Part shown: positions 5,678 to 15,841 of the stretch, one piece after another
How positions within the stretch are numbered: the stretch's first letter is position 1
How the letters are laid out: each line of letters begins with the position of its first letter
NCBI GenBank assembly: GCA_013001165.1
Contig: JABDNC010000165.1
Location: 1 to 32,688, forward strand
Length of the DNA: 32,688 nt
DNA from: Erythrobacter sp.
GTDB lineage: Bacteria > Pseudomonadota > Alphaproteobacteria > Sphingomonadales > Sphingomonadaceae
Direction: 5' to 3'
Made by a program: the position numbers and the translations under genes
The notes under the pieces: generated by a model
Database searches by the model: none
The model's input: the letters and a program-made list of their open reading frames with translations, nothing else
What the model was told of the DNA's origin: nothing

Positions 5678-6568
5678 TCACGGATAGGTAACGGTCTTCG
5701 GCTGGCCGTCGGGAAGGGGGATGCGTTCCTCGCTGTCGCCAGGCACTTCGGGGAAGCGTCCCTTCCGCCAGTCTTCCTTGGCCTGGTTGATGCGTTCGCG
5801 GCTGGAACTGACGAAATTCCACCATGCGTGGCGCTGGGTCTGGAACGCCTCGCCGCCCAGCAGCATGACCCGAGCGCCGGTCTTGCTCTCCAGCGTCATG
5901 TCGCGGCCCGGCTGGAGAACGGCCAGCTCGTAGGGCTTGAGTGGGTGACCATCGATCACCGCCTCGCCGTCGACCAACATGACGGCGCGTTCGTCGGCTT
6001 CTTCCTCGACCGGGATGGCACCGCCCGCTCCCAGCACAATCTCTGCATAGATCGTATCGGCATAGGTCGTGGTCGGCGCGCGTTCGCCCCAGAGCTCGCC
6101 CATGATCACGATTGCCTTGGCGCGGCCGTCCTCGATGACCGGCAAGTCGCTAACGGCCTCGAAGGCCGGATCGATCTCTTCGCGCCCGTCGGGCAGGGCG
6201 AGCCATGTCTGCATGCCGAAGAGCTTGGGGCCTGCCTTGCGTTCGGCTTCGGGAGAGCGTTCGGAATGAACGATCCCCTTGCCTGCGGTCATCAGATTTA
6301 CCTGACCCGGACGTATGGTCGAGAAACTTCCGAGGCTGTCGCGGTGGTCGATCGCACCTTCGAACAGCCATGTGACCGTGGCGAGGTTGATGTGCGGATG
6401 CGGTCGCACGTCCATACCGCTGCCGAGGTCGAGTTGCGCCGGGCCGAACTGGTCGACGAAAATGAAGGGACCGACCATGGTCCGTTTCTTGGAGGGCAGC
6501 ACGCGCCTGACCTCGAACTGCCCGAGATCATGCGTCGTCGGCGTCAGCGTGAGGTCGATCTGGCTCAT
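5678..6568 (-). CDS. Pirin family protein
   Basis: MSQIDLTLTPTTHDLGQFEVRRVLPSKKRTMVGPFIFVDQFGPA... DVRPHPHINLATVTWLFEGAIDHRDSLG...GKGIVHSERSP. Confidence 0.93.
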   Translation of the reverse strand: MSQIDLTLTPTTHDLGQFEVRRVLPSKKRTMVGPFIFVDQFGPAQLDLGSGMDVRPHPHINLATVTWLFEGAIDHRDSLGSFSTIRPGQVNLMTAGKGIVHSERSPEAERKAGPKLFGMQTWLALPDGREEIDPAFEAVSDLPVIEDGRAKAIVIMGELWGERAPTTTYADTIYAEIVLGAGGAIPVEEEADERAVMLVDGEAVIDGHPLKPYELAVLQPGRDMTLESKTGARVMLLGGEAFQTQRHAWWNFVSSSRERINQAKEDWRKGRFPEVPGDSEERIPLPDGQPKTVTYP

Positions 6569-6584
6569 GTCATGCCCCTTGTTC

Positions 6585-6857
6585 CTATGGTGTCGGCGCA
6601 GAAGCCTGTATGGCGAGGGCGTGGACCCGCTCTCCGGGAATATCGCCCAGCGCCTTGTTGACCATTCGCTGGCGGTCGAGGCGCGACTTGTCGGCAAAGG
6701 CGGGCGCTTCGATCACGACGGTGAAATGCGATTCACCGCTACCGTCGTCGCCGGAATGGCCGGCATGTTTGGCGCTGTCGTTGATGACTTCGAGCCGCGT
6801 CGGCGCAAAGGCCTCGGTCAGAAGGCGTTCCATCTCCTGTTGGACCGGTCCTGACAT
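6585..6857 (-). CDS. BolA family protein
   Basis: MSGPVQQEMERLLTEAFAPTRLEVINDSAKHAGH...ESHFTVVIEAPAFADKSRLDRQRMVNKALGD. Confidence 0.93.
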   Translation of the reverse strand: MSGPVQQEMERLLTEAFAPTRLEVINDSAKHAGHSGDDGSGESHFTVVIEAPAFADKSRLDRQRMVNKALGDIPGERVHALAIQASAPTP

Positions 6858-13543: not shown

Positions 13544-13665
13544 AGTGGAGAGCGGCCGATAGCGTCCGGTTCCCGATGATTACAATGTTTTAATTCGATC
13601 GCGTGGCAACAAGCCGCCAGCCTCCTTGCCGGAGCGTGACACCGGGTCGCGCCTCCGACAATCAG

Positions 13666-13671
13666 GAGGAT
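13666..13671 (+). promoter_or_regulatory. Consensus Shine-Dalgarno upstream of the 53-aa peptide gene (position approximate to within 1-2 nt)
   Basis: caatcAGGAGGattacctaATG. Confidence 0.8.
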
Positions 13672-13677
13672 TACCTA

Positions 13678-13839
13678 ATGAACCTACCCAAGTTCGACCT
13701 TTCAAGCCTGCCCGACCTCGACACGGTGACCGGCCTTTTCGGCACGTTGTCGGCATCCGAAGGTCCGACCGTGGATGACCGCGTGGTCGTGATCATGACC
13801 TACATCTACGAAGTCGCTCCGCCCGAAGCGCTGCTGTGA
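13678..13839 (+). CDS. 53-aa small acidic peptide, uncharacterised (candidate peptide/precursor of the cassette)
   Basis: MNLPKFDLSSLPDLDTVTGLFGTLSASEGPTVDDRVVVIMTYIYEVAPPEALL; ideal SD, short spacing to the next co-directional gene; no Cys, His or Trp. Confidence 0.72.
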   Translation: MNLPKFDLSSLPDLDTVTGLFGTLSASEGPTVDDRVVVIMTYIYEVAPPEALL

Positions 13840-13855
13840 TCGGGAACGCGGAACG

Positions 13856-14818
13856 ATGAGAATCGACCCGCAATTGCGCGCGCTGCGGAGCGACACTCCT
13901 CCGCAGCGCAAGGCGCAAGTCGCGCTGGAAGCAGCCCGCGATGCCTGGGCGCAGGGACCTGCGCGCAAGGTGCTCGAAGAGCTGGAGAGCTATGGGGGCG
14001 AGGGCGAGCTCGGCGAATATCCCGCGCTGGCCGGCCTATTCACACAAGGAGGCACCGCCAGGGAGCTCACCGAAGCCCTGATGGTCGGATTGCTGGACGA
14101 GGTAAAGGAGCACCCGCTCGGGCAAGTCCCCTTGCGGCACCAGTACAAGGACGGTTTGTCCGTTCTGCAGATTGCCCAGCGCGGGCGTGCCGCCTTGTCG
14201 TTGATCACGTATGAGGAGACGGAAATCCATCCGACCTCGGTGTGTTTTGCCGGCGGCGAGCGTCACGAGGCGGTGCTGGCAGGATCGGCGGACGTCTGCG
14301 AGTTCGAACTGCTTTCAGAGGGCTCCGAGCGCGCCTCCATCGATTGCCGAACGCGCCGCGCCGTAGCCGGCGAATACCTTTGCTGCGAAGGGCAGGCGCA
14401 TACGCGCCAGATCAGGCAGGTGCATGGCCGCTTCGTGGTCCTGCGGCTTTCGCGCACCGAAGAGGTGCCGCCACAAACGCGCCAGTACAGTCTTGCCGAC
14501 GGTCGCTTGCTCCACTGTGCGAGCGGCTGCCGCGCGGAAAGCCAGCGCGAGATGGCGACGGCGCTGCTGGGCCGGATGGGTCGCAGCGATGTCGCCCCCT
14601 TGCTGGCACGGCTTACGAGGGAGGGCAGCGATCATATTCGCTGGCAGACCCTGCGCGAATGCCTCGCTCTCGATACGGTGCAGGGCTTCGCCGCCCTGTC
14701 GGCCATCGCGCGCGATCCCGCCGATCCGCTCTCGACATCTGCCGGTGCGCTGATGGCGCATTTGGTCGAAGCGCACCCCCAACTCTCTCAAATCGAGGTG
14801 TCCCGATGCCCCGCATAA
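13856..14818 (+). CDS. Uncharacterised protein, cupin-like centre with HEAT-like C-terminal helices (cassette protein A)
   Basis: 320-aa ORF; GEYLCCEGQAHTRQIRQVHGRFVVLRLSR beta-rich stretch followed by SQREMATALLGRMGRSDVAPLLARLTREGSDHIRWQTLRECLALDTVQGFAALSAIARDPADPL helical repeats. Confidence 0.75.
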   Translation: MRIDPQLRALRSDTPPQRKAQVALEAARDAWAQGPARKVLEELESYGGEGELGEYPALAGLFTQGGTARELTEALMVGLLDEVKEHPLGQVPLRHQYKDGLSVLQIAQRGRAALSLITYEETEIHPTSVCFAGGERHEAVLAGSADVCEFELLSEGSERASIDCRTRRAVAGEYLCCEGQAHTRQIRQVHGRFVVLRLSRTEEVPPQTRQYSLADGRLLHCASGCRAESQREMATALLGRMGRSDVAPLLARLTREGSDHIRWQTLRECLALDTVQGFAALSAIARDPADPLSTSAGALMAHLVEAHPQLSQIEVSRCPA

Positions 14819-15716
14819 TCCCGTCCGACGAAACCTCAGCGCATGGCCTCGAGGATTGCCTCGAAATGCTGGACTCGGTGCCCTTCGAACCGGAGGACGA
14901 AGATAGCCTCGGCAATGGTGCTGTTGCGTTGAAGCGGCTTGCCAACAATAGCCACTTCCTAGGCGATTTGCTGATCGAGCAATTGAAGGTCGGCCACAGG
15001 GGTGGCGGGATCGAAAGCGCTTATGGTCCGCAGTCGATCGTGCTCTCGCGCATGCGTGGGCGCAGCTTCCTTCGCGCCAATATCTGGCCCAGCGAGCAGG
15101 AAAGCTGTTTCCGCGCGAGCGGGTCTGATGCTTTCGTCTATGGCGTGCCGCATGACCATAATTTCAGCTTTCTGACCGCGGGCTACTTCGGGCCGGGCTA
15201 CGGAAGCGATTACTATGAGTATGATTACGAGAGCGTCGCTGGATATCGCGGCGAGGTGTGTGACCTGCGCTTCGTGGAGCGCACGCATCTGGAGGAGGGC
15301 AAGCTCATGCTCTACCGCGCCAATCTCGACATCCATTCGCAATTGCCGCCCGAGAACATGTCGGTGTCCCTCAACATAATGCATATCGATCCGGCAAAGG
15401 CGTGGTCGGACCAGTATGGATTCGATCTGGACAGCAATGCGGTGACGGGCGTGCTCAATCCGACGTCGACCGAATGCTCCTGCGCTGTGCGGTGGGCATG
15501 GGCGGCAACGAGGCGCTGGACTTTGCCGAATGGGCGGGGCGCGAACATCCCAGCGACAGGCTCCGGCTGGCGAGTTTCGAGGCGCGCAGCGGGTTGGTGC
15601 GGGGGTCCGCACGCGACGCCCTGTGGCGCGAAGCCGAGCTATCGGGAAGCGTCATGCTTGCAAAGGAAGCAGCGGAGAAGCGCCGCCAGATCGAACGCTC
15701 CTACCAGAGCGCGTAG
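14806..15716 (+). pseudogene. Uncharacterised cupin-like/HEAT-like protein (cassette protein B), reading frame broken by an apparent -1 frameshift near 15465-15475
   Basis: Frame 1: MPRIIPSDETSAHGLEDCLEMLDS...VYGVPHDHNFSFLTAGYFG...LDIHSQLPPENMSVSLNIMHIDPAKAWSDQYGFDLDSNAVTGVLNPTSTE; continues in frame 3 as MLLRCAVGMGGNEALDFAEWAGREHPSDRLRLASFEARSGLVRGSARDALWREAELSGSVMLAKEAAEKRRQIERSYQSA. Length is 911 nt, one short of a 303-aa ORF plus stop. Confidence 0.7.
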
Positions 15717-15841
15717 ACCGTCATCACGAGGAAAAGGACGATGAATGCCATGCCGAGCAGGCGGCCAAGCGCGTTGAAAAGACCTCGCCGTCGCCTGCCG
15801 CGATTAGGCACGGCTTCGAATACGTCCAGAAAATCCAGCAT
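15701..15841 (-). CDS. Small single-pass membrane protein (46 aa)
   Basis: Hand translation: MLDFLDVFEAVPNRGRRRRGLFNALGRLLGMAFIVLFLVMTVYALW; below the ORF-track length cut-off; basic patch plus hydrophobic C-terminal helix. Confidence 0.6.
   Translation of the reverse strand: MLDFLDVFEAVPNRGRRRRGLFNALGRLLGMAFIVLFLVMTVYALW

Follow-up and report, generated by a model that had tools for sequence, protein, structure and literature searches.

A conserved cassette of a 53-residue peptide and two predicted cupin-HEAT-like proteins in Erythrobacter and its relatives: a candidate core of a small-peptide maturation system

The three-histidine site of the thiol dioxygenases is exemplified by Av3MDO, in which it comprises H90, H92 and H142, and these enzymes carry an outer-sphere Ser-His-Tyr motif (PMC8050391; PMC10966181). 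The cupin fold serves in addition in a biphenomycin-like pathway, where the JmjC-related hydroxylase PbsQ works together with MNIO and B12-rSAM enzymes (PMC12257519). YknWXYZ, a four-component transporter of Bacillus, protects against the SDP peptide toxin (PMC4887032). Here we describe a cassette of three genes, encoding a 53-residue peptide and two larger proteins, A and B, within a 32,688-nucleotide stretch of Erythrobacter sp. DNA (GCA_013001165.1, contig JABDNC010000165.1; the whole stretch is hereafter the window). We propose, with a probability of about 0.5, that these genes form the central part of a RiPP- or bacteriocin-like system for maturing a small peptide, pared down in Sphingomonadales to that part.

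The peptide ORF (13678-13839, plus strand; 53 codons plus stop) lies behind a perfect AGGAGG ribosome-binding site (13664-13669, plus strand), eight nucleotides upstream of the ATG at 13678, and this site or a shorter purine-rich one precedes most homologues. After a gap of 16 nt comes the gene for protein A (13856-14818, plus strand; 320 aa), with a helical N-terminal domain, a cupin domain and HEAT-like C-terminal helices, which overlaps the start of B by 13 nt (14806-14818, plus strand). The same 13-nt overlap is found in nearly all members of the genus, and again in an Alteromonas plasmid homologue (9001-9013 of L174); A and B may thus be translationally coupled through it. To the left lie a class A PBP gene and two 4HBT thioesterase genes, the latter on the minus strand; to the right, in convergent orientation, are a 46-aa TM ORF (15701-15841, minus strand), which meets the end of B tail-to-tail in a 16-nt overlap, ruvX (also on the minus strand), and genes for a DUF3089 protein and an AI-2E-type transporter. 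The layout given in a first-pass annotation of the window, from the Shine-Dalgarno-like hexamer through the 13-nt overlap to the opposite-strand neighbours on either side, holds throughout. The 46-aa TM ORF was considered as a fourth member of the cassette and rejected, as homologues of it persist beside ruvX in some trio-less genomes. Promoter and terminator scans of the locus, and a search of Rfam, returned nothing above chance.

The window peptide begins with FDLSSLPDLDTVTGLFG, ends with DDRVVVIMTYIYE, and contains no cysteine, such that it cannot serve as a cysteine-thiol substrate; a small-molecule thiol may still be used. M1, L11, G19, F21, G22, D34 and Y42 are invariant among its homologues, and conservation runs the whole length of the peptide, including a well-conserved C-terminus. 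Between close relatives its dN/dS is 0.06-0.23, and this constraint, together with the recurrence of the 13-nt overlap in nearly all genus members, establishes that neither the peptide ORF nor the trio is a product of chance. The corresponding ratio lies at 0.09-0.34 in A and at 0.06-0.19 in B, indicative of purifying selection on all three genes.

The three genes are also present and absent together. Peptide, A and B each occur in the identical 40 of 61 genomes of the genus, and all three are missing from the remaining 21; in 16 of the 19 trio-less genomes that were inspected, the site is empty, with the thioesterase gene abutting the ruvX side across a gap of 51-274 bp. Mapped onto a tree of two neighbouring proteins, absence requires 13 changes, nine of them forced by well-supported branches, and each change covers all three genes. 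Beyond the genus, one scan of GTDB genome contigs representing 84,980 species returned 283 loci encoding relatives of B. From these, 80 loci in named genomes of Erythrobacteraceae and other Sphingomonadales (Qipengyuania, Erythrobacter, Altererythrobacter, Novosphingobium and others) were kept, and peptide, A and B stand in order at 79; in the sole exception the sequence starts within B, at the edge of a contig. At several of the 80 one flank has changed and the trio is still whole. Peptide, A and B are therefore real genes that form one unit, as the first-pass annotation had surmised: co-conservation of the kind whose lack it had named as fatal to the proposal is complete within the genus, and its other proposed objection, clear homology of A and B to a characterised, unrelated family, did not materialise either.

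Protein B was annotated as the gene following A, and its 13-nt overlap stands, but a single-nucleotide frameshift was missed and the end assigned to it, 15716, is that of an intact gene. In the window B is not an open frame of 303 aa: relative to L032, L033 and L034, one T is absent near 15478 (15478-15479, plus strand), where these relatives read TGY-TTC-CTG/ATG-CGC and the window reads TGC-TCC-TGC-GC. The first 224 residues of B, which hold the entire cupin domain, are encoded upstream of this lesion (14806-15477, plus strand); the HEAT-like tail follows in a frame that differs from that of the B start (15480-15716, plus strand), where translation in frame 3 yields an 80-residue match to the B C-terminus. 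Left uncorrected, B stays open as far as 15744 and acquires a foreign tail of 88 aa. The missing T may mark a real pseudogene, or an assembly error in what is a draft of 289 contigs. Programmed frameshifting was rejected, because close homologues of B read straight through and need no shift. Elsewhere in the genus, A and/or B have decayed independently by stop codons and frameshifts at L052, L053, L054, L057 and L039 (genomes G002, G008, G047, G010 and G018), and in G010 a deletion fuses A with the second half of B. The peptide ORF remains full length despite a broken A or B in the window, G008, G010, G018 and G047, and is shortened in G002.

The survival of the peptide beside damaged partners bears on the idea of a toxin-antitoxin or defence module, in which the peptide would be a membrane toxin and A and B its antitoxin. 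A small peptide with a hydrophobic tail, tight coupling, gain and loss as a unit, and a homologous pair that neighbours restriction-modification genes on a plasmid of Vibrio would all suit such a module. If full-length peptide ORFs outlive A or B, however, the peptide alone is not lethal; this argument is a weak one, since lesions would be expected mostly in A and B by length alone. PADLOC models match neither the peptide, A and B of the window nor A and B of the Alteromonas plasmid, and we regard the module as very unlikely.

In keeping with the first-pass annotation, which recognised none of the three as a named family, no Pfam or NCBIfam model scores above cut-off against the peptide or B, and for A the same libraries yield a weak, sub-threshold match to HEAT_2 and no other family. 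Searches of PDB sequences likewise returned no family for the peptide or B. Of five AlphaFold2 models of B, for which an intact homologue (L032) was used, the best has a mean pLDDT of 86 and the other four have 73-75; the model of A reaches 88.8. With Foldseek, the nearest structures to the B model are 3-mercaptopropionate (E 3e-7), mercaptosuccinate and cysteine dioxygenases, with TM-scores by target of 0.5-0.67, and the A model retrieves assorted cupins in the PDB. Both proteins are thus predicted to consist of a cupin domain followed by HEAT-like repeats, which bears out their description in the first-pass annotation as cupin/HEAT-like partners. In an alignment of 17 diverse Pseudomonadota homologues of B, the predicted metal ligands H116, H118 and H177 are invariant, as are R90, W94, F120, G129, G131, Y132 and Q179, and the histidines fit the known three-histidine pattern of cupin dioxygenases. 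B is probably an iron enzyme, judging from this pattern and the modelled fold, although we infer both iron binding and oxidation from the histidines. Comparison of wide A- and B-family profiles with hhalign (probability 96.4, E 1.3e-9, 246 columns) indicates that A is a degenerate paralogue of B across both the cupin and the HEAT-like parts, having lost the three histidines; profiles built from the genus alone do not show the paralogy (E 0.09), which emerged with the broader profiles only.

The proximity of these folds to enzymes of small-molecule thiols would suit a housekeeping pair acting on such a thiol or another metabolite, in which case the peptide would be a small protein that is linked but unrelated. 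Such a pair would not account for a peptide that is lost and conserved together with A and B, or for the recurrence of the pairing at other genomic sites, and we consider it highly improbable. The loss of the metal site in A suits a non-enzymatic complex, in which the cupin folds would be scaffolds and A and B a binding platform, either carrying the hydrophobic peptide as a third subunit or shielding the cell from it. HEAT-like repeats are protein-binding modules, and conservation of the peptide at full length is as expected of a structural subunit. A scaffold would, however, have no need of the three histidines of B, nor of R90, W94, F120, G129, G131, Y132 and Q179, all of which are held invariant phylum-wide; such a complex is unlikely, in our estimation, yet it stands with a domesticated sensor as one of the two main rivals to maturation of the peptide.

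Searches of other groups recovered scattered homologues of B outside Sphingomonadales, including the copy on the Alteromonas stellipolaris plasmid (L174), which is 39% identical across 99% of B. There and at L185 the genes run Yip1, HlyD, a MacB-type ATPase, an FtsX/MacB permease, small peptides, A, B, an ABC ATPase and an ABC-2 permease, and these transporter genes resemble those for bacteriocin export or immunity. Such transporter sets recur, in whole or in part and in different arrangements, at L231 and L233; L186 has a divergent HlyD-ABC-FtsX set, and L232 only a Yip1 gene, downstream of B. As the transporter queries were drawn from L174 and L185, only L186, L231, L232 and L233 count as independent cases. 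Most loci outside Sphingomonadales (14 of 20) have no such transporter. Among the 80 Sphingomonadales loci, which served as a control, no Yip1-, HlyD-, MacB- or ABC-2-type gene lies near the trio, and none does in the window. The transporter-associated relatives lend independent support to the resemblance, noted at first pass, of a small acidic peptide and its two partners to a precursor peptide with modifying or sensing proteins. L233 (G1082) is a multi-copy version of the cluster, in which three A-B pairs and sets of the ABC/ABC-2 and Yip1-HlyD-MacB-FtsX kinds fall within 15 kb.

A short ORF ahead of A and B is also kept in the distant relatives. These ORFs encode 36-56 aa and are usually acidic, and in 21 of 22 hydrophobicity is greatest within the C-terminal half, a count that is descriptive because the ORFs were selected by position and by eye. 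Conservation among them is seen for some pairs only (L191/L234 and L236/L237). The L191 and L234 ORFs are credible, since they belong to different genera and have GNFD and LDPVFVIPIII in common. L185 carries three tandem peptide ORFs (6298-6798), two with the N-terminal motif I-x-x-[IV]-P-x-L-[DE], whose counterpart in the window peptide is LSSLPDLD, and a third with a close variant; the last two also have DSTVGGVC in common and look like duplicates. The peptides of L236/L237 and L171 include leader-like LTLxEAxxVSxG stretches. More divergent arrangements occur as well. At L187 and L189 (G826 and G870), shorter B-like copies are paired with an unrelated-looking partner of 228 aa, near long genes that by eye have the look of adenylate-cyclase-type regulators. 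A short A/B-like pair on a Vibrio plasmid (L175, 8255-9823), accompanied by a small ORF containing EGRCGGATLRWN, sits between Tn3/recombinase and restriction-modification genes.

The confinement of transporters to distant loci admits a reading in which the Sphingomonadales cassette is an intracellular sensor or regulator, of oxygen, redox state or the envelope, with oxidation of the peptide by B as its switch and the export-linked loci as its ancestry. A fixed chromosomal site, the lack of an exporter and purifying selection would all be compatible with such a role, for which there is precedent in cysteamine dioxygenase, an enzyme that oxidises N-terminal cysteine of proteins and to which an oxygen-sensing role is ascribed (PMC8503633). 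Repeated loss within a single genus, however, would suit an accessory trait better than a core regulator, and no DNA-binding or signalling domain was found; we consider a sensor distinctly improbable.

Under the maturation model that we favour, the 53-aa ORF would be a precursor, with a recognition segment in its N-terminal part and a functional segment in its hydrophobic C-terminal part. A and B, paralogous cupin-HEAT proteins, would act as a pair: catalysis would fall to B, as a mononuclear non-haem iron enzyme whose ligands are three histidines, and A would be a pseudo-enzyme that positions the peptide. B would oxidise a residue in the C-terminal half of the peptide, for which the invariant D34 or Y42 are candidates. 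In distant Pseudomonadota, neighbouring transporters would export the modified peptide as a bacteriocin-like agent, and the ABC-2 pump would provide self-protection. In Sphingomonadales the core alone would be kept at a fixed site, so its product would use unlinked exporters or act inside the producing cell. We infer, then, the metal, the oxidation, the modification of the peptide and an antibacterial role. Weighing against the model, neither the window nor the 80 Sphingomonadales loci have an exporter or immunity gene, which is unusual for a RiPP cluster, and the peptide C-terminus is conserved, whereas many bacteriocin cores vary.

If the model holds, this would be a widespread peptide-maturation system, with 283 loci in a single scan of 84,980 species, and a new use of the three-histidine cupin fold, on a cysteine-free peptide. 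Given that no Pfam or NCBIfam model covers the cassette, and that no known RiPP enzymes accompany it, genome mining based on such models would probably miss it. A simple set of three genes would be testable in E. coli, and a pair of active and inactive paralogues would offer a clean case of pseudo-enzyme specialisation. More tentatively, and as a claim that we think somewhat likelier to fail than to hold, the cassette may define a new class of ribosomally made, modified peptides: a cysteine-free hydrophobic peptide oxidised by a heteromeric cupin-HEAT pair, of a three-histidine non-haem iron enzyme without Ser-His-Tyr and a pseudo-enzyme. Such a system would be mobile, together with genes for export and immunity, in distant Pseudomonadota, and stripped to its core in hundreds of Sphingomonadales.

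Set against the systems outlined at the outset, B resembles the thiol dioxygenases in its predicted cupin fold, with an H-x-H pair and a third histidine (H116, H118 and H177), but has no significant sequence match to them, and differs in its extra N-terminal helices, its C-terminal HEAT-like repeats, its paralogous partner A and the adjacent cysteine-free peptide. At the sequence level, the 17-homologue alignment has no conserved His or Tyr after the third histidine, where SVSLNIM stands, such that the Ser-His-Tyr motif is missing and B was not assigned to the thiol dioxygenase family. With that His and Tyr lacking in B, and no cysteine in the window peptide, the known chemistry cannot apply. 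The window locus showed no recognised class of RiPP enzyme, recognition element, protease or exporter, and the cassette differs from the PbsQ pathway in having no MNIO or B12-rSAM enzymes. The peptides of L236/L237, with ELTLEDAEFVSGG, and of L171, with LTLDEADVVSAG, have what we take to be a resemblance to double-glycine bacteriocin leaders. GG/GA leader sites were seen, by eye, in these three peptides only, and not in that of the window, which further departs from bacteriocins of this kind in lacking such a transporter nearby and in having no NCBIfam match. The transporter-linked relatives resemble YknWXYZ in carrying Yip1, an HlyD-type fusion protein, an ABC ATPase and an FtsX/MacB-type permease, a set that is found in distant relatives and not in the window; a link between YknWXYZ and cupin-HEAT pairs is not described in PMC4887032. 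Among open-licence papers we found none on a cupin-HEAT pair or such a cassette, which is no proof of novelty. What the cassette has in common with RiPP clusters is a short, precursor-like ORF immediately 5' of tightly coupled partner genes, the presence of a cupin protein and, at several distant loci, putative exporters. A small precursor with modifying proteins is a known kind of system, to which the cassette appears to bring new enzymes in a new pairing.
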